Positions 1 to 62,633 of a stretch of 64,000 bases of DNA are shown piece by piece (position 1 is the stretch's first letter; the number at the start of each line of letters is the position of its first letter). The notes under the pieces were generated by a model. That model was not told where the DNA came from. It did no database searches and saw nothing but the letters and a program-made list of their open reading frames with translations. Source of the DNA: Planctomycetota bacterium (GTDB lineage: Bacteria > Planctomycetota > PLA2 > JAEUHO01); assembly GCA_029259775.1 (NCBI GenBank), contig JAJDEN010000058.1, positions 1 to 64,000 on the forward strand, written 5' to 3'. Made by a program: the position numbers and the translations under genes.

Positions 1-873
1 CACGTAGTCGAAGCCGTAGCGTCCCTTCACGCAGAGTCGGCCCTGGTTGCCCGGACTCTCGCGCCCTTCGGCGAACACCACTTCATTGCGTGCGCGATCG
101 ACATGATAGGTGAGCGCGCAGCCGACACCGCAGTACGGGCAGACCGAATCGACCGCTTCAAGTTCGGCGCGCGGGCGAAGCGCTCCCGAGATCGGCTTGT
201 TCGTGAGGGCGCCAGTCGGGCAGGCGGCCACGCATTCGCCGCAGCTCACACAGCTCGATTCGCGCATTTCCTGATCGAGGTCGAACGAAATCCTTGCGCC
301 GACTCCCTTGCCGGTGCGGCCGATCACGTCGTTGTGCTGCACGTCGGAACATGCGCGAATGCACCGGTCGCACAGGATGCAGGCCTGGTGATCGACCTCG
401 ATGACGGCCGAGCTCGGATCTTGCACGCGGCCGTTGCCCTGGGGCCAGCGCGAGCCATCCGCGTCGAGTTCACGTGCGAGGTCAAACAACTCGTCGTCGC
501 CGGTGCGCTTCTCCCGCGCGCTCGTCTCGTGCTGGTCCGCCATCATGAGCTCGGTCAGCACCTTGCGATTGCGCCGGATCTGCTCGTTGTCGGTCTGGAC
601 TTCCATGCCCTCCTCGACCTTGCGGATGCACGAGGCCTGGAGCACGCGCGCGCCCTTGACCTCGACGACGCACATGCGGCAGACGCCGGCCGGCTCCATG
701 CGCGGGTCGTGGCAGAGGACGGGCACGGTCTTGCCGATCTCGCGCGCCGCGTCCCAGATCGTGTAGTGCTCGGGCACGGTCACCGAGTCGCCGTCGATCT
801 CCAGGGTGATCCGGCCGGTGGGCTTGGCGGCGGCACGGGCCTTGGCAGCCTCGGAGATCAGGGGCGAGTTCAT
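1..873 (-). CDS. Formate dehydrogenase-type molybdopterin oxidoreductase, catalytic subunit (N-terminal 291 residues, runs off window)
   Basis: The frame is open from ATG at 873 to base 1, so only the N-terminus is visible. It starts with a 2Fe-2S ferredoxin-like domain (C54, C65, C68, C82), then a pair of 4Fe-4S motifs (C165/168/171/175 and C208/211/214/218), then the beginning of the Mo/W-bisPGD domain with the CPYCGVGC motif (C245/248/252) and C281. This order is that of NAD- or ferredoxin-linked formate dehydrogenase alpha subunits (FdhA/FdsA, NuoG-like). The His-Cys3 cluster usually found between the 2Fe-2S and ferredoxin parts is not evident: a histidine is present near residue 115 but no cysteines follow. 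The ATG overlaps the stop of the upstream oxidoreductase gene as ATGA (870-873), implying translational coupling. The catalytic Cys/Sec lies outside the window, so the substrate is inferred. Confidence 0.88.
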   Translation of the reverse strand, partial: MNSPLISEAAKARAAAKPTGRITLEIDGDSVTVPEHYTIWDAAREIGKTVPVLCHDPRMEPAGVCRMCVVEVKGARVLQASCIRKVEEGMEVQTDNEQIRRNRKVLTELMMADQHETSAREKRTGDDELFDLARELDADGSRWPQGNGRVQDPSSAVIEVDHQACILCDRCIRACSDVQHNDVIGRTGKGVGARISFDLDQEMRESSCVSCGECVAACPTGALTNKPISGALRPRAELEAVDSVCPYCGVGCALTYHVDRARNEVVFAEGRESPGNQGRLCVKGRYGFDYV

Positions 874-2681
874 CGAAAGGCCTCCAGGCCGAGTTCCCGC
901 GCGCGGTGCGCGGGGACCCTGCCGTCGTCGGTCCATCCGCGGGTGCGGTAGTAGCTGAGGATCATACGGTCGAGATCCTGGGGGCTCAACGAGACCCCGT
1001 CCGCCGGCGAAGGCCCGTCGCTCGGGGCCTGCAGCGGCTCGGTCAGGAATCGCGCGGGGAGCGTGTCCTCGGCTCGGGTCCAGCCCTCGCGCTCGTTGAA
1101 GAGCTTCTTGAGCGTGACGATGCGCTCGGCGGTCTCGAGCAGCTCCTCCTTCGTGACATCCCAGCCCGTCACGGCGCTTAGCATCGTCGCGGACTCCGCC
1201 TCGAGGTCGCTGAACACGCCACGCAGGAACTTGCAGAGGATCAGGCTGTCGAGGAGTGCCGCCTTGTTCTCGGTCCCCGCGGCGGCAGGCCCCTTGGAGG
1301 TGCTGGCGGCGAGGCGATCGGAGCCCGGCCTGAAGTCCTCCTCGTAGGCGCCCGAGCGGTTGTGGTCCGCACCACGCGCGCCGACCGCGAGCCCCAGCCC
1401 CATGGCTTGGAGTGCACGCGGCTCGTAGCCCGGCAGCTCGAGGCCCTTCACGTGGCAGGCGAAGGAGGGGGCGTCGCCGCCCAGGCGGTCGGCCGCGATC
1501 CTGGATCCTTCGGCGAGGAGATCACCGATGCCGCGACGATGGGCGACGTCGTCCAGGAGAGCGAGCAAGCCCGCGCCGTCGCCAAAGTCGGGGGCGCCCT
1601 CGAGCAAGCCGCGCTGCGCACACTCCATGGCGAACGCCACCGTGCCGCCGGCGGAGATCACGTCGAGCCCGAGATCGTCGCAGCGCGCCGCGGCCTCGAG
1701 CACGACCTCCCGGTCGTCGATGCCGCACAAGGAGCCCAAGGCGAAGACGCCTTCGTACTCCAAGCGCACCATCCTGCCCGACTTCGTGCCGAAGACGTGC
1801 TCGCAGCCGATCGTGCAGGCCGCGCAGTGCTTGCGGACCTTGGTCGGCGTGGCGTGAAAGGCTTCGCCGGAGATCTCTTCGGCGCCGTCGAAGGTGCCCG
1901 ACTGGAAGTTGCGCGTCGGCAGCGCGCCCAGCCGGTTCAGTACGAGCACGTTGGCGATCGTGCCGAGCTCGCGGTACTTGGCCGTGCCTTCGCCGAGCGA
2001 GCGCTTCGAGAGGTCCTTGGCCAGGGCGAGCACGGCCTCGCGGTCGGCGACCTCGCACGGCGTGGTACCCCGCACCGCGATGCCCTTGAGCCGCTTCGAG
2101 CCGAAGACCGCGCCGAGGCCGCCGCGGCCGGCGTGGCGGTTGTCGCCGGAGATGGTCGCGTAGCGCACGAGGTTCTCGCCCGCCGGGCCGATGCCGAACC
2201 AGCGGAAGGACGGCCCGAGCCGCTCGCGCATGCGCTCCTCGGCGTCGATCGAAGACCGTCCGACGAGGTCGGCGGCGTCTTCCAGGCGCACGTCGCCGTC
2301 CTCGATCACGAGGATCGACCATGCGGGCGCGGCGCCCGTGATCACGAGGGCGTCCAGTCCGGCGTGCTTGAGCTCGATCGCGAAGCGATCGCTGGCCAGG
2401 GCGTCGCTGATGCGGTTGGTGAGGGGTGACTTCGCTACGACAGCGAACTTCGCGGAGGTTGTCAGGGGCGAGCCGACGAGCGGCGAGAGCGCGACGACGA
2501 TCGCGGCTTCGGGCGCGAGCGGATCGACGCCGGTGGGGGAGGCGTCGAGCAGGAGGCGCGTGCCGAGCCCGGAGCCACCGAGGAAGGCGCGCAGGGTCGC
2601 GTCTTCGATCGGTGCATGCCGCGCGGCGCCGTCATCGAGACGGACGTGGAGCGACTGGCCGTGATATCCACCGGGAGGCAT
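870..2681 (-). CDS. Tungsten-containing aldehyde ferredoxin oxidoreductase family protein
   Basis: The protein has 603 residues, the usual size for AOR. This family oxidises aldehydes to carboxylic acids with a tungstopterin and a 4Fe-4S cluster, passing electrons to ferredoxin or a partner subunit. The cluster ligands are visible: C286-x2-C289-x3-C293 and C483, spaced as in Pyrococcus AOR. The GRGGLGAVFGSKRLK stretch (about 186-199) and the DDLGLD motif (about 335-340) bind the two pterins. It is followed with a 4-bp overlap by the formate-dehydrogenase-type subunit, so the two may form one complex or share an electron acceptor (inference). There is no Shine-Dalgarno; a TACAAT box lies at 2688-2693, 6 nt before the ATG, suggesting a leaderless transcript. 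Tungsten rather than molybdenum is inferred from the family. Confidence 0.92.
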   Translation of the reverse strand: MPPGGYHGQSLHVRLDDGAARHAPIEDATLRAFLGGSGLGTRLLLDASPTGVDPLAPEAAIVVALSPLVGSPLTTSAKFAVVAKSPLTNRISDALASDRFAIELKHAGLDALVITGAAPAWSILVIEDGDVRLEDAADLVGRSSIDAEERMRERLGPSFRWFGIGPAGENLVRYATISGDNRHAGRGGLGAVFGSKRLKGIAVRGTTPCEVADREAVLALAKDLSKRSLGEGTAKYRELGTIANVLVLNRLGALPTRNFQSGTFDGAEEISGEAFHATPTKVRKHCAACTIGCEHVFGTKSGRMVRLEYEGVFALGSLCGIDDREVVLEAAARCDDLGLDVISAGGTVAFAMECAQRGLLEGAPDFGDGAGLLALLDDVAHRRGIGDLLAEGSRIAADRLGGDAPSFACHVKGLELPGYEPRALQAMGLGLAVGARGADHNRSGAYEEDFRPGSDRLAASTSKGPAAAGTENKAALLDSLILCKFLRGVFSDLEAESATMLSAVTGWDVTKEELLETAERIVTLKKLFNEREGWTRAEDTLPARFLTEPLQAPSDGPSPADGVSLSPQDLDRMILSYYRTRGWTDDGRVPAHRARELGLEAFR

Positions 2682-3693: not shown

Positions 3694-4329
3694 ATGATCG
3701 GCCTCGGCGCCGATAACCGGCCTCTCCCAAGGATCCCCTGCATCTGGAGCCTCCCCCTGAGCGCCAGCCACCTCTCGACCGCCGCCATCGTCTGCGCCCT
3801 CCTGGGGGCCGTGACCTGCCTGCTGGACTGGGCGGTGCCGCCGCGCTCGCTCGCGGCGGCCACCGCTGCTGCGCACGCCAGCCGGTTGGACGGCGGCGGA
3901 AACGACGCAGCGCATCGCGTGCGTGAGGTCGCTACCGCCTTCCCGCTGCAGGGCACAGACCAACCGCTGCACGGCATCTGGGTGATGGTGCTGGCCGCGC
4001 TGGGCGCTGGCTTGATCGCGGGCGGGCTCCTCTTGGCCGGCCAGCCAGGTCGTCAGCAGGTTGCCGAGGGAACCGTTCGCGGTGCAGGGGTCGTCCTCGC
4101 GCTCGGGTTCCTCCTCGTCCTGATGGATGTGGGATCGGACGTCTTCGCCCAGCGCGAGCGGGGCCTCCCACTCTGGATCACGGGCGTGCTCCTGGTCGCA
4201 GGTTGCTTGGCCGCCACCTTCGCCAGCGTGAAGCTCGCGCCGAGCACGGCATCAACCCCCGGCGAGGGCACCCGGGAGGTTGCATCAACCCCCGGCGAGG
4301 GCGCTGATGATGAGGACGGTCTCGTCTGA
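3694..4329 (+). CDS. Hypothetical four-helix membrane protein
   Basis: The frame encodes about 211 residues with four hydrophobic segments (roughly residues 28-48, 94-116, 128-148 and 158-180) and a short acidic tail containing two copies of STPGEG. Codon third positions are strongly G/C, as in neighbouring real genes, and no convincing gene reads on the other strand here. The start is uncertain: ATG at 3694 is used, but the frame is open further upstream (ATGs at 3604, 3607, 3616) and would then overlap the divergent gene's start. No ribosome binding site is obvious. The 3' end overlaps the convergent moaD-like gene by 45 bp, and the STPGEG repeat corresponds to a duplicated DNA segment. Function unknown. 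Confidence 0.5.
   Translation: MIGLGADNRPLPRIPCIWSLPLSASHLSTAAIVCALLGAVTCLLDWAVPPRSLAAATAAAHASRLDGGGNDAAHRVREVATAFPLQGTDQPLHGIWVMVLAALGAGLIAGGLLLAGQPGRQQVAEGTVRGAGVVLALGFLLVLMDVGSDVFAQRERGLPLWITGVLLVAGCLAATFASVKLAPSTASTPGEGTREVASTPGEGADDEDGLV
4249..4302. repeat. 21-bp direct repeat duplicating the 3' end of the moaD-like gene
   Basis: Two identical 21-bp copies lie at 4249-4269 and 4282-4302, separated by 12 bp. The right copy encodes the last residues (ALAGG) and stop of the minus-strand moaD-like gene; the left copy is just downstream of that stop. On the plus strand the repeat encodes the paired STPGEG segments at the end of the membrane protein. Confidence 0.85.
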
Positions 4330-4545
4330 GTCGAGCGGCGTCGCCGGATCATCGACGAACGCGCGGCCGCCCACGTTCGCGCGCCAGTGGGGGGCAAGAC
4401 CTCCGGGGAGGAGCACGCGCGGCTCGAGCTCCGGATGCAGCCGACGCAACGCATCGAGGGCATCACCCAGTGTCGCGGCCTCGACCTCGACGCTCGCCAC
4501 GCCGGCAAGCTGACGCGCGCCTTCGTAGAGCTCGATGCGGATCAC
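4285..4545 (-). CDS. MoaD/ThiS family sulfur-carrier protein
   Basis: The protein has 86 residues with a beta-grasp ubiquitin-like pattern and ends in Gly-Gly, the residues that become thiocarboxylated. MoaD is the small subunit of molybdopterin synthase and donates sulfur to the pterin dithiolene. The start is GTG at 4545, overlapping the mobA stop as GTGA. The neighbours MobA and MoeA, and the downstream AOR and formate-dehydrogenase-type genes, argue for molybdenum/tungsten cofactor work rather than thiamine. No moaE, moaA, moaC or adenylating moeB is present in the window. The last 21 bp are duplicated directly after the gene. Confidence 0.87.
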   Translation of the reverse strand: MIRIELYEGARQLAGVASVEVEAATLGDALDALRRLHPELEPRVLLPGGLAPHWRANVGGRAFVDDPATPLDSDETVLIISALAGG

Positions 4546-5144
4546 GACGCCTCACGCTGCAGGCGTTCGAGCGCTGCTTCGTAGGCCTCGGGCGTGTTGA
4601 GGTTGGCGAGCGACAGCAGCTCGGGATCGGCCGCGCGCAAGTCGGCCTCTGCGACCCGGACGGTCGGGACCTCGCCAAAGAGGAAGATGGGCCGCCGGCG
4701 CTCCTCCGCCAGCAACCGCTCGACGATCGGGAGCACGGTCGTGCGGTAGACCGCGGCCAGTGGATGGGTGAACCCCCCTTCATCCGCCACGGCGATGTCG
4801 GCCTCGCCGAGGCGCTCGAAGAGAAGCTCGACGAGCGCGGCCTGGAGGAACGGTACGTCGCAGCCGGTCGTGTAGAGCGCGTCGGCTGTCGCCACGCGCA
4901 GCCCGGCCTGCAGGCCGCCCAACGGACCCTGGTCCTTGATCTCGTCGCGCGCGATGCGCACGTCGACGGGCAGCTCGGGCAGTTCCTGCCCGGGGCGGCC
5001 GACGACCACGACCTCGTCCACGAGCGGACGCACGAGACGTACGACGCGCTGCAGCAGGGTCTCCGCGCCGAACGCGAGCGACGCCTTGTCGCGGCCCATA
5101 CGCGTACTGTGGCCGCCGCAGAGGATCAACGCGCCGCGCTTCAT
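4542..5144 (-). CDS. mobA: Molybdenum cofactor guanylyltransferase
   Basis: The protein has 200 residues. MobA attaches GMP to molybdopterin to make the bis-MGD cofactor used by DMSO-reductase family enzymes such as the formate dehydrogenase-type protein at the window edge. The N-terminal nucleotide-binding signature LILCGGHSTRMGRDKASL (about 6-23) matches the GGxSxRMGxDK motif, followed by QGPLGG and a TGCDVPF segment that supplies the metal-binding aspartate. The ATG at 5144 overlaps the moeA-fusion stop (ATGA at 5141-5144), and its own stop overlaps the moaD-like GTG, so the cluster is translationally coupled. Length is normal for the family. Confidence 0.93.
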   Translation of the reverse strand: MKRGALILCGGHSTRMGRDKASLAFGAETLLQRVVRLVRPLVDEVVVVGRPGQELPELPVDVRIARDEIKDQGPLGGLQAGLRVATADALYTTGCDVPFLQAALVELLFERLGEADIAVADEGGFTHPLAAVYRTTVLPIVERLLAEERRRPIFLFGEVPTVRVAEADLRAADPELLSLANLNTPEAYEAALERLQREAS

Positions 5145-7081
5145 GCCGGCTCCTCGGCGGCGGGGAGCTCCGGGACGCGGAAGCCGGCGTCTGTCAAGGC
5201 CGCCCGCACGGCGGCGTGCTCGAGCGCCGCGCAGAACGCGCGCACGGCCACGCGCTCGCGACGTTCGTCCGGAACCAGGAAGTCGAGCTGCTCTTCGCGC
5301 CACGGCCGCCAGGCGAGACCCGCGGCGTGCGCGGCCTGCTCGAGGCACAGGCCGTAGTCGGCGCGTCCCTGCGCGATGGCGGAGGCGACGGCGGTGTGCG
5401 AGCGGTAGGCCGTCGACCAGCCGGGCGGCGACGCGCCTGCGCGCCCGCTGAGCATCGCGTCCATGAGGATGCGTGTCCCGCTGCCGGGGTTGCGATTGGC
5501 GATGCGAAGACGGCCCTCGTCCATGATCCGGCCGACCACGGCAGCGATCTCGCCCGCACCCAGGTCTCCCGCGTGATCCTCGCGGTAGGCAAGGCCCTGC
5601 CGTCGCTCGTAGCCGCGTACGACACGTACGCCGTCGGCCGCGAACGGCGCGTTCCACGTACCGCTCGCTTCGTCCAGCATGTGCACCGGTGCGACGTCGC
5701 ATGCGCCGCTCGCCGCGGCCTCGATGCCGCCGCGCGAGCCGGTGGTGAGCACCTTGGCGTCGTAGCCGGCGTCCGCGAGATGGGTGAGCACCAGATCGAG
5801 GCCCATGCAGTGGCTTCCGACGATGACGAGGTCGGCCGGGTGCACGTCGCGCCCCAGCAGGGTGACATCGACGGTCTCGCCCTTCTCGATGTACTCCTCG
5901 TCCGATGCCAGGTCGAAGAACCCGTCCGCCCGCGCGAAGGTCGTGATCGATCCGGAGCCGCTCCCCAGCGGGAAGGCCAGGTAGCCATCGCGGCCCTGCA
6001 CGAGATTCACGAGGTTGAACTCGCGCCGTCCCCTCACGCTTTGTACGTGACGCGGCAGGCGCGCCTTGACGCGTGCGGCCTCGTCCTCGCGCCGGCCGAG
6101 CAAGCGGCGCAAGACGGGGGCGACGACGGCGTGGAAGGTGAAGATCGCGGAGGTCGGGAACCCCGGCAGGACGACCACGGGCTTCCGATCCCACACCGAG
6201 AGGCACAGCGGCTTGCCGGGCTTGAGCGCCACCCCGTGCACGACGGGCTCGGCCAGCGTGTGCAGGACGCGGTAGCTGAGGTCTCCCCCGCCCTTGCTCG
6301 TGCCGCCGGAGAGGAGCGCCGCGTCGTAGCCGCGCGCCTTGGTCAGCACGGCGCGGAGTTCGTCTTCGTCGTCGCGCGCGATGCCCAGCATGTGCGGCTC
6401 CGCGCCCATCTCGCGCAGCGCATCCGCGAGCATGGTGGCGTTGGCGTCGTGCACCTGGCCCGGGGCGAGGGGCGTACCCGGCGGCACGATCTCGTCGCCC
6501 GTGCTGACGATCGCGACCCGCAGGCGTCCGACACAGAGAACGTCCGCGATGCCGCACGCTGCGAGCGTGCCCGTCTCGCGTGCCGACAGGTGCGTTCCCT
6601 TGCGGAGCACGATCTCGCCGCGTGCCACGTCGCTGCCGGCCAGGCTGATGCGCCCCCCCGGCGCGACGGGCTTGTGGATGGCGACCGAGACGCCGTCGCT
6701 GTCCGTGTCTTCGACCATGACGATCGCGTCGGCGCCGCGCGGGACCACGCCACCCGTCGCGATCGTGCAAGCGGTGCCGCGCTCGATCTCCACGTCCGGC
6801 GCGTGGCCGGCGTCGATAGGCTTGCCTGCGAGGCGGAGCGGGGCGGGCTGCCGCTCGGAGGCGCCGAAGGTGTCGACGGCCATCACGGCGAAGCCGTCGA
6901 CATTCGAGCGGTCGAAGGCCGGTACGTCGCCTTGGGCGATGACGTCTTCCGCGAGCACGCGGCCGTGCGCGTCGGTGAGCGACACGCGTTCGGAGGGCCG
7001 GGGCGCGAGGTCGAGTACGGCGTCCCAGCGCCGGCGGGCTTCGGCCAGGGTCACGACATCGAGGAACTGTTCTTGCTTCAC
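5141..7081 (-). CDS. MoeA-type molybdopterin molybdenumtransferase fused to a periplasmic-binding-like (LysR substrate/PBP) domain
   Basis: The protein has 646 residues. The first 400 or so form MoeA (MoeA_N from the LAEAR region; the GGTSKGGGDL metal/pterin motif in the MoCF domain; a C-terminal domain ending near RREFNLVN). MoeA inserts molybdate or tungstate into adenylated molybdopterin. From about residue 435 (HPADLVIVGSHCMGLDLV) a PBP-like/LysR substrate domain follows; MoeA-PBP fusions of this kind are known in archaea and anaerobic bacteria, and the extra domain may sense or deliver the oxyanion (inference). The start is GTG at 7081, overlapping the upstream metallophosphoesterase stop as GTGA; the longer ATG reading has an Arg/Pro-rich non-coding look. 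Confidence 0.92.
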   Translation of the reverse strand: MKQEQFLDVVTLAEARRRWDAVLDLAPRPSERVSLTDAHGRVLAEDVIAQGDVPAFDRSNVDGFAVMAVDTFGASERQPAPLRLAGKPIDAGHAPDVEIERGTACTIATGGVVPRGADAIVMVEDTDSDGVSVAIHKPVAPGGRISLAGSDVARGEIVLRKGTHLSARETGTLAACGIADVLCVGRLRVAIVSTGDEIVPPGTPLAPGQVHDANATMLADALREMGAEPHMLGIARDDEDELRAVLTKARGYDAALLSGGTSKGGGDLSYRVLHTLAEPVVHGVALKPGKPLCLSVWDRKPVVVLPGFPTSAIFTFHAVVAPVLRRLLGRREDEAARVKARLPRHVQSVRGRREFNLVNLVQGRDGYLAFPLGSGSGSITTFARADGFFDLASDEEYIEKGETVDVTLLGRDVHPADLVIVGSHCMGLDLVLTHLADAGYDAKVLTTGSRGGIEAAASGACDVAPVHMLDEASGTWNAPFAADGVRVVRGYERRQGLAYREDHAGDLGAGEIAAVVGRIMDEGRLRIANRNPGSGTRILMDAMLSGRAGASPPGWSTAYRSHTAVASAIAQGRADYGLCLEQAAHAAGLAWRPWREEQLDFLVPDERRERVAVRAFCAALEHAAVRAALTDAGFRVPELPAAEEPA

Positions 7082-38031: not shown

Positions 38032-38083
38032 CGGTTGGTCTCTGGCTCCATGGCACCTAGCAACATTCCGAATGGAGATACCC

Positions 38084-39406
38084 ATGCGCTTGCACCTGAT
38101 CGTCCTGCTTCTGCTGCCTCCGGCCCTCGTGGCCGCTTGCGGTGGGGGAGGCGGAGCCCAGCTACCCGTATCCGAGTCCAAGGCCGTCCTCGACGGCGGC
38201 GTCACGGAGGTCGACGGCGAGACCGCCAACCTCGGCGGCATCCGGTTCCTCGTCCGTGAGACGGGCGAGATCGTCACCACCGCCGCCGATGGGGCCTTCG
38301 CGTTGAGCGCCACGCCGTACGGCTCGCTCACGCTGGCCCTCGCTGCGGCACCCCTTGCGGGCAAGCCGGGCACGTCCAGCGGCAACCAGACCAGCGACAG
38401 CGACGATGACAGCGACGAGCACAGCGACGACGACTCCGACGATGACAGCGTCGACGACGACGAGGTGGAGGACGGCGACGACCGGGATGACGATGAGGTT
38501 CGCCTCCATCGTCTGCGGCCCGGCGAGCGGATTCGCCTGCGTCTGCGGATCCGCAACGGCCGCCTCGAGCGCGCGGACGTCTCCCGCTCGGAGCACGACG
38601 AGCGCGAGGTCGAATGGTGCCTGCGCCGCACCGAGCAGAGCGACGACCGCGACATGACCGGCTGTCTCGAGATCGAGCGCCGCGACGATCGTGTGCGCAT
38701 GGAGCTGGAAGTCGAGCACGCCACACCCGGTCGCGACCTCGAGTTCGTCGTCATCAACCTCGACGGTCGCGAGGAGTCGCAGGGCATCATGAGGGTCGAT
38801 CGCGAGGGGGAGGCCGAGTGGCACCTGTTCCGCGGTGGTCTCCCGTTCGCCGTGGCGCTCCTCGAACGCCTCGAGGGCTTCACGGTCGTCGTGCGTGACG
38901 CGACCGACGGGGCCGATCTCCTCAAGGGCATCGTGCCCGAGCTCCCGCGCCCGGCCCCCCGCCCGGATGACAGGCACGATGACGACCGGGACGACGACCG
39001 GGATGACGACCGCGACGACGATCGTCACGAGGAGGACGGCCGCGAGCGCGGCAGGTCCCGGCTTACCGCCCAGCTCCCGGGTCTGGAGGGTTACATCGAG
39101 ATCCGCAGCCGCTCCGATGACGGGCGTCAGCGGTTCAAGATCAAGGCGGAGCATCTCGAGGTCGGCCGCGACGTCGAGTTCTTCTTGGAGGACGCAGCGT
39201 CACCGGGCTCGTTCGTGAGCCTCGGCGTCCTCACGGCGGACCTCGAGGGCGAAGCGGAGCTCGAGCTGGACACCGGCGACGGCGAGACGCTGCCCCTCGG
39301 CGTCCTGTCCGTGGCCGAGCTCGTAGGCCTCGGTGTCGAGGTCCGCGACGCGGCCACAGGCGATCTCTTGCTGGATGGGGCCGTCCCGGCCCTCCACGAA
39401 GACTAG
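38084..39406 (+). CDS. Acidic Asp/Arg-rich lipoprotein
   Basis: The protein has 440 residues. A signal peptide ends in LVAACGGGGG. After a carboxypeptidase-regulatory-like stretch (about 25-85, FLVRETGEIVTTAADGAFAL) comes a run of Asp/Ser (about 104-140) and, near 305-330, repeated DDRD/DDDR units encoded by a 12-bp tandem repeat (about 38964-39030). The two flanking domains (about 142-300 and 332-440) resemble each other (ERIRLRLRI, LEVGRDVEFFLED, GEAEWHLF and GEAELELD). GGAGA at 38074-38078 favours ATG 38084 over ATG 38072. It is the first gene after the palindromic promoter and precedes DUF6502 by 18 bp. The Asp runs could bind calcium; function unknown. Confidence 0.8.
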   Translation: MRLHLIVLLLLPPALVAACGGGGGAQLPVSESKAVLDGGVTEVDGETANLGGIRFLVRETGEIVTTAADGAFALSATPYGSLTLALAAAPLAGKPGTSSGNQTSDSDDDSDEHSDDDSDDDSVDDDEVEDGDDRDDDEVRLHRLRPGERIRLRLRIRNGRLERADVSRSEHDEREVEWCLRRTEQSDDRDMTGCLEIERRDDRVRMELEVEHATPGRDLEFVVINLDGREESQGIMRVDREGEAEWHLFRGGLPFAVALLERLEGFTVVVRDATDGADLLKGIVPELPRPAPRPDDRHDDDRDDDRDDDRDDDRHEEDGRERGRSRLTAQLPGLEGYIEIRSRSDDGRQRFKIKAEHLEVGRDVEFFLEDAASPGSFVSLGVLTADLEGEAELELDTGDGETLPLGVLSVAELVGLGVEVRDAATGDLLLDGAVPALHED

Positions 39407-40449: not shown

Positions 40450-41870
40450 CCCACAAGCACTGGATCCCCTCCCTGCTCGCGGGCCTCGCCCTCACGATGC
40501 TGGCCGCGTGCGGCGGCGGCGCGACGTTCGGCGGCGGCATCAGCGGCTCGGGCAAGCCCGGCCTCAAGGTGGGCGACAACGGGGCGGACGGCGCCGTCCT
40601 CGTCGGCGGCACCAGCTTCGACAGCGCGATGGCCGTCATCACCATCGGCGGGGCAGCCGCCACACTCGCCGATGTGAAGGCGGGACACGTGGCCCTGGTC
40701 GAAGGCCTGATCGACGGCGCCCTGGGCGTCGCCGACCGCGTCACGATCGAGCAGCTCGTGCAAGGAGAGCTCACGGCCAAGCTCGATGCGAACCGGTTGC
40801 GCGTCCAAGGGCAGATCATCCAGATCGACGAGAAGACGGTCTTTGAGAGCGGCATCAGTCCCGCCTCGCCCGACGGCTTGGTCACGGGCGATCTGCTCAA
40901 GATCTACGGCTTCGTGAAGGGGCGCGGGCAGGCCCTCGCGACCCGCGTCGAACGCGCCGCGTCGCTCGGCGAGTTCCGCATCATCGGCGTCGCTGAGAAC
41001 GTGCGAGAGGGCGACAAGACGTTCGACATCGGTACGCAGCCGATCGACCACGGCATGGCCGACGTCAGCGAGCTGCCCGGCGGCGATCCGGCCAACGGCC
41101 AACTCGTCAGCGTGCGCGGCTCGACGACCCTCAGCATGAACGGCGAGGTCGTGGCGCATCGAGTGTCCCCCCTCGGTCTCGACGATCGACCCGACAACGA
41201 CGAGAGCGAGATCGAGGGTTTCGTCACCGCCATCCTCTCCGCGACGGAGTTCCGGCTCGGTGCGGTAACCGTACGCACCAGCGGCATCACGCGCTTCGAG
41301 GGCGGAACCCCGGCTGACGTCGTCGTCGGTGCGCGCGTCGAGGTCGACGGCATGCTTGGCAATGGCGTGCTGGCCGCACGCAAGGTCGAGTTCGAGTCGA
41401 GCGTGGAGCTCGAGTCCAATGTCGACAGGGTTGTCGGCGAGACCATCACGCTGGTCGGTCTGCCCGGCATCACGATCGATGTCAACAGCCTCACCGAGTT
41501 CGACGAGGACGCCTCCTCGCTCGCCGACATCCTTCCCGGGGATCACGTCAGGATCCGCGGACGCAAGACAGGCACCTCTTCCGTGGTCGCGAGTCGGGTC
41601 AAGGAGACCGGCGCGGACACGGATGTCATTCTCCAAGGCCCGGTCGACGCTTCACCAACCCCCCAGAACCCGTTCCTCTCGATTCTTGGCGTGCTGATCA
41701 ACACGTCGGGTATCGCAGAGAGCGAGTTCAAGAGCCCCGAGAACGAAGCGCTCGGCCGGGCCAATTTCTTCCAGCGTGTGGCGCCAGGCGTGATCGTCAA
41801 GCTCGCGGGCACGCTCGTGGGTTCAGCGCCGTCTTGGGAGAGCGCGGAGTTGGAAGACGTGGACGACTGA
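40446..41870 (+). CDS. DUF5666 domain lipoprotein
   Basis: The protein has 474 residues. The signal peptide ends in TMLAACGGGATFGGGISGSGKP. The rest is a series of OB-like beta repeats typical of DUF5666 (LRVQGQIIQIDEKTVFESG, SEIEGFVTAILSATEFRLG and ITRFEGGTPADVVVGARVEVDG), at least three copies. DUF5666 proteins are exported and of unknown role. It is the last gene of the lipoprotein-DUF6502-mini-DUF5666 operon and starts at an ATGA overlap. Confidence 0.86.
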   Translation: MTHKHWIPSLLAGLALTMLAACGGGATFGGGISGSGKPGLKVGDNGADGAVLVGGTSFDSAMAVITIGGAAATLADVKAGHVALVEGLIDGALGVADRVTIEQLVQGELTAKLDANRLRVQGQIIQIDEKTVFESGISPASPDGLVTGDLLKIYGFVKGRGQALATRVERAASLGEFRIIGVAENVREGDKTFDIGTQPIDHGMADVSELPGGDPANGQLVSVRGSTTLSMNGEVVAHRVSPLGLDDRPDNDESEIEGFVTAILSATEFRLGAVTVRTSGITRFEGGTPADVVVGARVEVDGMLGNGVLAARKVEFESSVELESNVDRVVGETITLVGLPGITIDVNSLTEFDEDASSLADILPGDHVRIRGRKTGTSSVVASRVKETGADTDVILQGPVDASPTPQNPFLSILGVLINTSGIAESEFKSPENEALGRANFFQRVAPGVIVKLAGTLVGSAPSWESAELEDVDD

Positions 41871-41932
41871 CCGGACGGGCCGACGAAATGGCCCCAGACG
41901 GAACGACGGGTGACGTTGCTACACTTCGTCAT

Positions 41933-43486
41933 ATGAGGTTGTCGACGACGAGATTCGCACGCTTGGCTGCAGGGTCCCTGGCTGCGGTCCTCCTGTGCGC
42001 CGCACCGATGGCCTGGTCGGACGATGACCCGGCTGCAGAGGTGATCGCGCCCCGCTTCGACCGCGTCGACTACAGCACGCCCGGCAAGGCCCTCGACCTC
42101 TGCGAGGCGTTTGGGAGCGAGGCGGAGATTCGCAAGGTCGCCGCCCGACTCAAGGCGACGTCGCGCCTCGACACCCTGCGGGCGATCGACACGTGGATCC
42201 GCAAGGATTTCGTCTACGACGCGGAAGCGGCCTTTGCGTGGCGCACGTTCGACACGATGCGCGCCGACAGGACGTACGGAGGCTGCGCGGATCACGCCGT
42301 CTTGTTTGGCAGCCTCGCCCGCGCGGCCGGCATCCCGACGGTGTTCGTCAAGACGATGGACTGCGACTGGATTCGCGAGTTCGTGAAGGGACCCGAGCCG
42401 GCCCGTTGGTCGGGCCATTGCTTCCTCGAGGTCAATGTCGACGATCGCTGGATGCTCCTGGACGCGTCGCAGATGGTGCTCTACCGCGAGCACGACACGG
42501 ACGCGCGGATCTACCCCGGGTCGCGCTACGCCTACGACAAGGGCCACGACCCGTTCGCCATGGTGAAGTCCATGCGCTGGCAGCTCTGGAAGAAGCAGAC
42601 GCGTACCTACTTCACGGGCTTCGACCTCGCCAAGTTGCCCGTCGGGGGCGGCGAGTCGCTGCGCGGCACGGCCCTCAAGGGCCGCGAGCTCGACCTGCGC
42701 GGCGGAATCACGCTCGTCTGCACGGCGTCGCTGCTCGATCGTGCGCGCGGCAGGCTGGGCACGTCCGGCCTCAAGGTGGACCGTACGGTCACCAACGCAG
42801 CCCCGGCGCTCCCCGCCGCAGCGCGGGGCAGTGCGGTCGTCTTCCTGGCGCCCGGCAAGCAGGCCCTGTACGCGTCCGCGTTCTTCGAGGGCGCCTACCT
42901 CGGATCCTACGAGCGCTTCCGGACGCAGCTCCTCAAGCACAGCGCGGGCATCTTCGGACGAGAGCTGGCCGACGGCACGCGCCTCTACGTCATCTTTGCG
43001 GCCGACGCCGACGCCGTGGTTGCGCTGCTCGGCACGTGGTCTCCCGTGAAGACGGCGCCCATCAAGACGGCACCGGGGAGCGCCGCCGACCTGCCCGCGA
43101 AGGTCTTCGTTGCCGCGCATGCGCCCTACTGGCAGTGGCTCAGCGCCCGCTGTGAGAAGCTCGGCATGCCCCGGCGGATGGTGCGCTCGTTCAACTACCG
43201 CTTCGACCAGGAACTCCCGCGCGCCAAGGGCCACACCCTGGTGATCACGTGGGTGGGGGATGTGCTTGTCCTCCCGGATCGCTATCACGGTCAGTTCCTT
43301 CCGGCTCCCCGCGAGCGTGTCGAGAAGCTGTTGAAGAAGCAGGCGCACGGTCGCCTCGACAAGACCCTGGACGACGGCACACGGGTCGTCCTGCTGTTTG
43401 CGCGGGATGAGCCTGCGATGCGCGCCGCCGTCGCGGCCTTCACGTTCGCGCCACGGGCCAAGCCGCTCAAGAAGGAGGCCAAGTGA
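41933..43486 (+). CDS. Exported transglutaminase-like protein
   Basis: The protein has 517 residues with a signal peptide (about 1-28, AWS-DDD). A transglutaminase-like domain follows with the triad C118 (TYGGCADHA), H162 (WSGHCFLEV) and D177 (MLLDAS), typical of cysteine proteases or transglutaminases of the bacterial Transglut_core type. The C-terminal half (about 230-517) is unfamiliar, with two similar segments (AVVFLAPGKQALYASAFFEG and KVFVAAHAPYWQW). A TACACT box (41920-41925) is 7 nt before the ATG, with no Shine-Dalgarno. Its stop overlaps the GTG of the selenoprotein-like gene, so the two are co-expressed and probably work together in the envelope. Confidence 0.87.
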   Translation: MRLSTTRFARLAAGSLAAVLLCAAPMAWSDDDPAAEVIAPRFDRVDYSTPGKALDLCEAFGSEAEIRKVAARLKATSRLDTLRAIDTWIRKDFVYDAEAAFAWRTFDTMRADRTYGGCADHAVLFGSLARAAGIPTVFVKTMDCDWIREFVKGPEPARWSGHCFLEVNVDDRWMLLDASQMVLYREHDTDARIYPGSRYAYDKGHDPFAMVKSMRWQLWKKQTRTYFTGFDLAKLPVGGGESLRGTALKGRELDLRGGITLVCTASLLDRARGRLGTSGLKVDRTVTNAAPALPAAARGSAVVFLAPGKQALYASAFFEGAYLGSYERFRTQLLKHSAGIFGRELADGTRLYVIFAADADAVVALLGTWSPVKTAPIKTAPGSAADLPAKVFVAAHAPYWQWLSARCEKLGMPRRMVRSFNYRFDQELPRAKGHTLVITWVGDVLVLPDRYHGQFLPAPRERVEKLLKKQAHGRLDKTLDDGTRVVLLFARDEPAMRAAVAAFTFAPRAKPLKKEAK

Positions 43487-44760
43487 AGGCCCTCGCCACG
43501 GTGCTGCTCGTTCTCGGCTTGATCGTGCTCGTGGGTGCGGTCGTGGGCGCGCCCCCCGCCTCCGGGGAGGAGGAGATCCAGGGCGTCACCTGGCTGACGG
43601 ACCTGGACGCCGCGCGCGCGGAGGCCCGCACGACGGGACGACCGATCCTCATCGTCTTCCGCTGAGAGCCGTGAAAGGACTGCAAGTCCTTCGACGGGCA
43701 GGTTGTCCGCGCCAGTGCCGAGCTCACCGCAGCAGCGCAGAAGTACGTTTGTGTACGGGTCACGAACATGAAGGGCGTGGACATCAACGTCTACGACTTC
43801 GACTTCGATCTCACCTTTGCCGTGCTGCTGATGAACGCCGACGGAACCATCTACCACCGCTACGGCGGCCGCGACTGGACGGATCCGCAGTCGCATCTCT
43901 CGGTGGCCAGCCTGGTGGACGTCCTCGAGAAGACCCTGCCCGATCATGCCAGCTACGCGAAGAAGCCTTCACCTCCGAAGAAGCGCAGGGCCGTGAGCGT
44001 CGATCGCATGCCGGCCATGCTGCGCAAGAAGAGGCAGCCGAACTGCTACCACTGCCACATGGTGCACGACGCGATGACCGAGGAACGGCAGCAGCGCAAG
44101 GTGTTCAAGCGGTCCGACGTGTGGCGCTATCCGGATCCGCATGAGCTCGGCTTCCAAGTCGAGCGGGACGACCAGGTTCGCATCAAGGAGGTCGTGCCGA
44201 CCTCCGCTGCCGCCAAGGCCGGACTGAAGGAGGGTGCGCGCATCTACACCATCGCAGGCAAGCGCGTGCTGAGCCTGGCGGACGTCATGCGGGCGCTGCA
44301 CGAAGCACGGTCCGGCCCCGGCCGGCTTGAGGTGACCTTCTGGCAGGACGGCGAGGAGCGCACGGGGGCCTTCCCGCTACGCAAGGGCTGGAAGGAACCC
44401 GTCCCGCTCAACTTCTCGTGGCGCGCCTCGAAGTGGAAGCTGTCGCCCAAGCCCGGCTTCGGCGGTCAGCAACTGAAGCCTGCGCAGCTCGCCAAGCTCG
44501 GCCTGGACGAGGAGGCCTTCGCTTTCCGGGTCGGCTACGTGGTGACGTGGGGGCCCGCGCGGCACACAGGCCAGAACGCCATCCGCGCGGGCATTCGCAA
44601 GGGCGACGTGATCCTTTCCTTCGACGGCGACAACGAGTTTGAGAGCGTCGATCATTGGCATGCGTGGTTCCGGCTACGCAAGAAGGCCGGCGAGAAGATC
44701 AAGGTCACGCTGCTGCGAGGCGGCAAGCGCAAGACGATCACGCTGCCCGTCGTGGACTGA
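43483..44760 (+). CDS. Candidate selenoprotein: thioredoxin-like Sec-x-x-Sec, CxxCH and two PDZ-like domains (reads through TGA at 43663 and 43672)
   Basis: The frame from GTG 43483 (GGAGG at 43474-43478, GTGA overlap with the previous stop) to TGA 44758-44760 contains only two in-frame TGAs, codons 61 and 64. Before them is a signal/anchor helix and TTGRPILIVFR, and after them KDCKSFDGQVV and YVCVRVTNM..., a thioredoxin-like fold in which related proteins have Cys-x-Pro-Cys. Reading TGA as selenocysteine gives U61-E-P-U64-K-D-C67. Then follow CYHCH (C188, C191, H192; a haem-c-type motif) and two PDZ-like domains (about 220-295 and 330-425). Total length is 425 residues. Two SECIS-like hairpins follow the TGAs. 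The alternative is a pseudogene, but both stops exactly at paired Cys codons, with an intact frame after them, make that unlikely. Confidence 0.8.
43669..43709 (+). promoter_or_regulatory. Two overlapping bacterial SECIS-like hairpins
   Basis: Hairpin 1: AAGGACT (43675-43681), loop GCA, AGTCCTT (43685-43691), extended below a 2x2 internal loop by CCGT/ACGG (43669-43672 and 43694-43697); its loop is 16 nt after the first TGA. Hairpin 2: CGGGCA (43695-43700), loop GGT, TGTCCG (43704-43709) with one G-U pair; its loop is 26 nt after the second TGA. Both loops start with G, as the bacterial SECIS model requires. Confidence 0.72.
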
Positions 44761-61811: not shown

Positions 61812-62633
61812 ATGCGCGTGCGTCCCCTCCGCCCGCCTCTCCCGCTCCTCCTGCTCCTCCTGAGTGCTTGCGGCGCCCCGGACGCTTGCCTGGAGGTATC
61901 GCCGCGCGCGCCCTCCATCGAGTTCCAAGAGAGCGTTGTCGACCTCGGTCGTCTGCCGCCGGACGCCCCGCATGAGGTGCGCGTGCCCTGGCGGCACGTC
62001 GGCACCGGCGGGCTGCGTGTCCTCGCCGTCGAGAGCGACTGCGGCTGTGTCGTTTCATCTTGGCTCAGCGGCTTCGAGAACTCCCGACTCAGCGGTTTCG
62101 AGAACTCCCGACTCAGCGGCTTCGAGAACTCCCGACTCAGTGGCTTCGAGAACTCGCGACTCAGCGGCTTCGTGGCGCCCGGCGCGACGGGGAGCGTCGT
62201 GGTGCGGGTCCGCGGGCCCCGCCGGCTCGGCGTCACGTCGCATCGCGTGCGCGTCTTCACGGACCAGCCGCCACCGGGCGACATCGTGACGTTCACGCTG
62301 CGGGTCCGGTCCGAGCACGATGCCGAGGTCGTTCCGCACGTGCTCGACGTCGGTCGTCGCTCCCCCGGTGCTCGCATGCGGCGCGACGCCGAAATCCGCC
62401 TTGCACCCGAGCTTGGACCCCAAGCGGACGACCTGACCATCCGCCTGACCGGCATCGATGGCGACGTACGCGTGCTGCCGCCCGTGCAGGGCGATCATCC
62501 GGGCCGACTCGTGCGCATGGAACTCCGCGCCCCCTCGTCGGCCGGCGACTTCGGCGGGCGGCTGCTCGTGCTGCGGGACGGTGCGCTGCTCGCCTCGGCC
62601 CGGATCTCGGGCTGGGTCGATGACAAGCCCTAG
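61812..62633 (+). CDS. DUF1573 lipoprotein with internal 8-residue tandem repeats
   Basis: The protein has 273 residues. The lipobox LLSAC (C20) ends the signal peptide. A DUF1573-type Ig-like domain follows (VDLGRLPPDAPHEVRVPW..., GLRVLAVESDCGCVV), ending in the usual CGC motif. Directly after it LSGFENSR is repeated four times plus LSGF (24-bp DNA units, 62064-62172), then VAPGATGSVVVRVRGPRR continues the domain. The C-terminal part is another beta domain. The protein is probably in the periplasm or on the cell surface. DUF1573 proteins are common in planctomycetes and Bacteroidetes; their function is unknown. Confidence 0.83.
   Translation: MRVRPLRPPLPLLLLLLSACGAPDACLEVSPRAPSIEFQESVVDLGRLPPDAPHEVRVPWRHVGTGGLRVLAVESDCGCVVSSWLSGFENSRLSGFENSRLSGFENSRLSGFENSRLSGFVAPGATGSVVVRVRGPRRLGVTSHRVRVFTDQPPPGDIVTFTLRVRSEHDAEVVPHVLDVGRRSPGARMRRDAEIRLAPELGPQADDLTIRLTGIDGDVRVLPPVQGDHPGRLVRMELRAPSSAGDFGGRLLVLRDGALLASARISGWVDDKP
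62064..62172 (+). repeat. 24-bp intragenic tandem repeat, 4.5 copies
   Basis: Units start at 62064, 62088, 62112 and 62136, with a partial unit at 62160. They begin CTCAGCGGCTTCGAGAACTC and differ by at most one or two bases (for example GGT for GGC in the second). The length in multiples of three keeps the frame. Confidence 0.93.

Follow-up and report, generated by a model that had tools for sequence, protein, structure and literature searches.

Within the window, the whole 64,000 nt stretch of planctomycete DNA that was analysed, a single plus strand frame runs from 43483 to 44760. The frame begins with GTG, has no in-frame start upstream of this codon, and ends with a TGA terminator (44758-44760). 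The only in-frame TGAs before the terminator are at 43663 and 43672. Mechanical ORF calling yields two fragments (43483-43665 and 43768-44760). The frame check and ORF calling bore out the coordinates, the fragments, and the motif of the original prediction, in which the locus was read as one gene for a Sec-x-x-Sec selenoprotein. The features of the locus are as follows:

41834-43486, plus strand: transglutaminase-core gene upstream, 550 aa, whose last 4 nt (GTGA) overlap the GTG start
43471-43478, plus strand: Shine-Dalgarno-like GAAGGAGG, 4 nt before the GTG, by direct reading of the sequence
43483-44760, plus strand: predicted trx7_PDZ selenoprotein gene, 425 aa when U61 and U64 are counted, GTG start and TGA stop
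43483-43566, plus strand: hydrophobic N-terminal stretch, residues 1 to about 28, probably a signal peptide, from inspection of the sequence; low confidence in the structural model
43588-43839, plus strand: Thioredoxin_7 domain, residues 36-119 (Pfam PF13899, 49.4 bits, cut-off 27)
43663-43665, plus strand: UGA codon 61, a predicted Sec codon for the upstream, accessory redox residue; TGA or Cys in 129/129 relatives
43672-43674, plus strand: UGA codon 64, a predicted Sec codon where the thioredoxin CxxC has its first Cys (codon census and alignment to 3fk8)
43681-43683, plus strand: Cys67, aligned through 3fk8 with the second Cys of the canonical CxxC, here U64-K-D-C67; Cys in 121/129 relatives
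43693-43711, plus strand: predicted SECIS hairpin, arms 43693-43700 and 43704-43711, loop GGU 43701-43703; 6/8 consensus pairs in the window copy
44044-44058, plus strand: C188-Y-H-C191-H192 (CxHCH), conserved in every member of the 129-member census, the Cys-Cys ones included
44137-44313, plus strand: first PDZ domain, about residues 219-277 (domain search)
44578-44748, plus strand: second PDZ domain, residues 366-422 (domain search, Pfam)

Because the start overlaps the upstream stop by 4 nt, the transglutaminase-core gene and the trx7_PDZ gene are possibly translationally coupled. A transglutaminase-core gene lies beside a homologue at one compared locus only (L006), and is not a conserved partner. 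Comparison of gene neighborhoods found no partner gene shared across the family. Transglutaminase, DUF5666, carboxypeptidase-regulatory, dienelactone hydrolase, and MscS neighbors recur in close relatives only, and the neighborhood was discarded as a clue to the substrate because it holds no conserved gene. When every TGA in the window was scanned for coding potential around it, 43663 ranked first and 43672 third. We read the other listed candidates as low-complexity, shadow-like frames without recognizable proteins, and the scan gave no convincing further selenoprotein gene in the window. Elsewhere in the window are a tandem array of a 24-base unit (62064-62172, 4.5 copies, 94% matches) and a putative lipoprotein-like ORF (38072-39406) in which 12-base repeats form two Asp/Arg-rich stretches (DDDRDDDR..., 38395-38458 and 38981-39021).

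The joined frame matches the NCBIfam model NF041199, "Trx7/PDZ domain-containing (seleno)protein," with 419.1 bits over residues 36-422. This is above the curated cut-off of the model (trx7_PDZ_seleno, 300 bits), and the protein thus belongs, by sequence, to a family that is already known. The family was first reported in 2008 from ocean metagenomes (GOS) as a "putative secreted serine protease MucD," with two Sec and 12 Cys sequences and a CxxU motif (PMC2398784). Two further papers also give it as CxxU (PMC9312934; PMC13188914), the latter under NF041199 and with one Sec. In our search of the open-access literature, PMC13188914 was the only paper found to name NF041199. The family shares with the window protein the layout of Trx7, CxHCH, and two PDZ domains, and Sec at position 64. 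The difference is at position 61, which is also a Sec codon here, giving U-x-x-U with two Sec codons in place of the published C-x-x-U. Since membership rests on the family model, we treat the window protein as a variant inside NF041199. The view that such a protein had not been described is therefore wrong for the family; what the tables of PMC9312934 and PMC13188914 lack is the double-Sec state alone.

The CxxCH motif and the two PDZ domains proposed from the sequence are real (CYHCH at 188-192; Pfam PDZ matches). The PDZ domains are related in sequence to those of the DegP/DegQ/MucD (HtrA) proteases, which differ in having a trypsin-like protease domain. No such domain was found in the window protein, HtrA models match its PDZ domains only, and the old name MucD is misleading. 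An AlphaFold model is confident (pLDDT 91), less so near the active site. The hits of a fold search with the whole model were mostly HtrA and RseP proteins that contain PDZ domains, and they said nothing about the Trx half.

Codons 61 and 64 were compared in 129 distinct relatives. Both are TGA (UU) in 75, the commonest form; 37 are Cys-TGA (CU), 17 are Cys-Cys (CC), and none is TGA-Cys (UC). TAA or TAG was found at neither codon in any of the 129. The homologues thus have Sec or Cys and nothing else at the two sites, and in-frame UGA aligned with the Cys of homologues is the pattern by which selenoproteins are recognized. Most of the UU relatives are 30-65% identical to the window protein. 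Genomes related to the source have full-length matches (44-64% identical) in which one or both of these codons are TGA. The named relatives are from Planctomycetota, Verrucomicrobiota, Poribacteria, and Abditibacteriota, plus a single bin that carries the label Actinomycetota. A tree of 125 members has at least 22 changes between the UU, CU, and CC states. These comparisons strongly support a single gene in which both codons appear to be under selection as Sec or Cys. A decayed copy or sequencing errors at the TGAs, for which the only support is that standard gene calling yields two fragments, is already refuted on sequence grounds by the conservation of TGA or Cys only, has next to no probability left, and would also have to account for the same two TGAs in 75 relatives from separate assemblies, the identity kept on both sides, the absence of other damage, and the SECIS covariation described below.

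Several genomes carry more than one copy of the family. The source genome has a second, more distant member with Cys61-Sec64 (one TGA), just below the NF041199 cut-off (L152; G000:C40:1-4500, ~174-1361, minus strand). One planctomycete contig (L144) has tandem copies at 3950-5143 and 5823-6971, one Cys-Cys and one Sec-Sec, and two others (L154 and L155) have two adjacent UU copies each. A genome of the window's GTDB family encodes a Cys-Cys member (L156; G008:C56) that on the tree joins the f25 family's Cys-Cys clade. This placement suggests transfer or paralogy, judging from the sequences, and the genome carrying this member has selA.

The source genome encodes the full set of selenocysteine genes that the original prediction had named as a check, selA, selB, selC, and selD. 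SelA was found at 501.8 bits, SelB at 336.7 bits, and SelD at 349.7 bits. The tRNA-Sec (70.7 bits; anticodon tca, or UCA, by ARAGORN) is encoded on the window's own contig. The selD gene has an in-frame TGA of its own and adjoins selA on the same contig (L038; G000:C57:29656-30576); this SelD is probably itself a selenoprotein. Across the family, selA was over the cut-off in 41/46 TGA-bearing genomes. The five misses consist of two partial hits at contig ends and three incomplete assemblies. Among near-complete Cys-Cys genomes of families f25, f68, and f98, selA is missing in 13/14; four Cys-Cys genomes outside these families do have it. The original claim of a Sec-x-x-Sec selenoprotein is supported by the homologues and the machinery together. 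A variant code or suppressor tRNA reading UGA as Trp or another standard residue would keep the frame open just as well, but we find it hardly credible: the alternative codons at both sites encode Cys only, the gene's own terminator is TGA, tRNA-Sec and SelA/B/D are in the genome, and selA accompanies the TGA-bearing genomes and is absent from most of the Cys-Cys ones.

Downstream of the two UGAs, RNAalifold predicts one hairpin for the 75 UU sequences, with a fuller form from the consensus of GACGGGCA-GGU-UGUCCGUC. Its loop follows UGA64 at 26 nt and UGA61 at 35 nt. Published bSECIS loops are 16-37 nt from the UGA (PMC13188914), and for both UGAs of the window the hairpin, the G in the first two loop positions, and this spacing were found. 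The UU loops are GGU (n = 60) or GUU (n = 15). Pairing of the stem is 92% in UU, 80% in CU, and 20% in CC members, and sliding the partners by 1-3 bases lowers UU pairing to 25-49%. UU members keep 7.35 of 8 pairs vs. 4.86 after synonymous shuffling; the Cys-Cys members keep 1.56 vs. 1.80, no excess. In the adjacent copies of L144 the hairpin pairs 8/8 in the UU copy and 3/8, a broken hairpin, in the CC copy. The pair 34-44 is formed in 108/112 Sec members, vs. a mean of 62.3 and a maximum of 73 in 2000 shuffles; shuffling of this kind does not correct for the relatedness of the members. It occurs in all four Watson-Crick orders (G-C, A-U, C-G, U-A). One partner in this pair is the second base of a Gly/Glu/Ala/Val codon, the other the third base of a Val/Ala codon, and because a second codon base is used, the amino acid is altered on one side. 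A few Sec members pair poorly in this register, and the majority of them have a shifted hairpin with an AGUU loop at the same place. When the 60-nt RNA of the window was folded alone, the best structure was a different, proximal hairpin of ordinary energy (z -0.61). A proximal, perfect inverted repeat at 43675-43691 (AAGGACTGCAAGTCCTT) was considered as a second, UGA64-specific hairpin and rejected for lack of conservation (pairing of 65% in UU and 51% in CU members). A scan of the window at the Rfam gathering thresholds gave no match. The comparative data support a covarying, putative SECIS hairpin within reach of both UGAs.

Efficient decoding of UGA64, combined with inefficient decoding of UGA61 as a selenium-dependent gate on expression, would fit a loop distance of 35 nt, near the far limit of the published range, and the finding that Cys61-Sec64 is common and Sec61-Cys64 never seen. 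Against it, no residue other than Sec or Cys is found at position 61, which means that the identity of the residue is important, and we consider such a gate improbable.

Thioredoxin folds in general have a cis-proline opposite the CxxC. In an alignment to the disulphide isomerase 3fk8, U64 and C67 fall on the CxxC, U61 falls on an Ala, and F112 falls on the cis-proline. By this alignment U64-K-D-C67 corresponds to the usual thioredoxin motif in its Sec-x-x-Cys form. U61, three places upstream, is an additional redox residue specific to the family, and the predicted center is U-x-x-U-x-x-C. The original prediction was thus right to place two Sec at the redox site but not to equate UxxU with the canonical CxxC. 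D107, D109, T111, C188, H190, C191, and H192 are invariant. An ordinary disulfide oxidoreductase would not need the invariant D107, D109, T111, and CxHCH, nor Phe at the cis-proline place.

These residues are also an argument for a different function, in which U-x-x-U-x-x-C, alone or with CxHCH and D107/D109/T111, would bind metal or heme, and the protein would be a metal-handling or heme-linked redox protein instead of a disulfide oxidoreductase. CxxCH is the attachment motif of heme c, and here it is invariant in a protein that, from its N-terminus, appears to be exported. Metal-binding double selenoproteins have also been catalogued, e.g., MbdU (PMC13188914). Yet CxHCH is equally kept in the Cys-Cys members and so is not tied to selenium, and, at the thresholds applied, neither Pfam nor NCBIfam gave a match to a cytochrome c family. 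We regard this function as doubtful, although it fares better than the selenium-dependent gate. A narrower combination, a PDZ-targeted periplasmic selenoenzyme in which a diselenide U-x-x-U-x-x-C center is coupled to heme or metal at CxHCH, we also hold to be quite unlikely; if true, it would represent a novel type of redox chain.

The best explanation overall, with a probability of roughly 0.75, is a double-Sec, exported selenol/thiol oxidoreductase decoded by SelA/SelB/SelC/SelD. In this oxidoreductase both UGAs would be read as Sec by the genome's own system, and one SECIS hairpin, 35 and 26 nt downstream, would serve both. The protein is likely to act in the periplasm. Since Sec61 never occurs without Sec64 in the census, U64, which stands where the thioredoxin CxxC has its N-terminal Cys, would attack as the nucleophile, and U61 would be its resolving partner. 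The oxidized intermediate may be resolved by U61 as a diselenide (a selenenyl-sulfide in the Cys61 form), by C67, or by both; C67 is dispensable in eight members. The two C-terminal PDZ domains may hold client polypeptides near the redox center.

We infer the Se-Se bond from the i, i+3 spacing of the two Sec and from the precedent of fish Selenoprotein L. Like the window protein, SelL has two Sec two residues apart and a single SECIS (PMC3316567). It differs in its eukaryotic 3′-UTR SECIS, in belonging to another protein family, and in having no PDZ domains. For SelL a diselenide has been shown, according to the title of a 2007 PNAS paper cited in PMC3316567, while for the window protein it is predicted by analogy. 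The UxxU Prx-like thiol:disulfide oxidoreductase and the double-Sec ferredoxin-thioredoxin reductase are also bacterial and have two Sec at the redox site (PMC2398784; PMC13188914), but are of other families, with other folds outside the redox site and no PDZ domains. The VPGUxxT thioredoxin-like selenoproteins (NF041383, NF041382) gave a weak N-terminal match to residues 24-100, far below the cut-off. We know of no second Sec or PDZ layout in these proteins.

Thus, the locus almost certainly holds a real selenoprotein gene, on sequence evidence a double-Sec variant of a catalogued family; the system as such is not of a new kind. Standard annotation that does not handle selenoproteins would cut such genes into two. 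A family catalogued with one Sec is mostly double-Sec in the census of 129, and one bacterial SECIS apparently serves two UGAs that are 9 nt apart, at fixed distances. The repeated switches between UU, CU, and CC, together with the tandem UU/CC pair of L144, offer a system in which to probe the chemical benefit of the second selenium and the reach of the SECIS.
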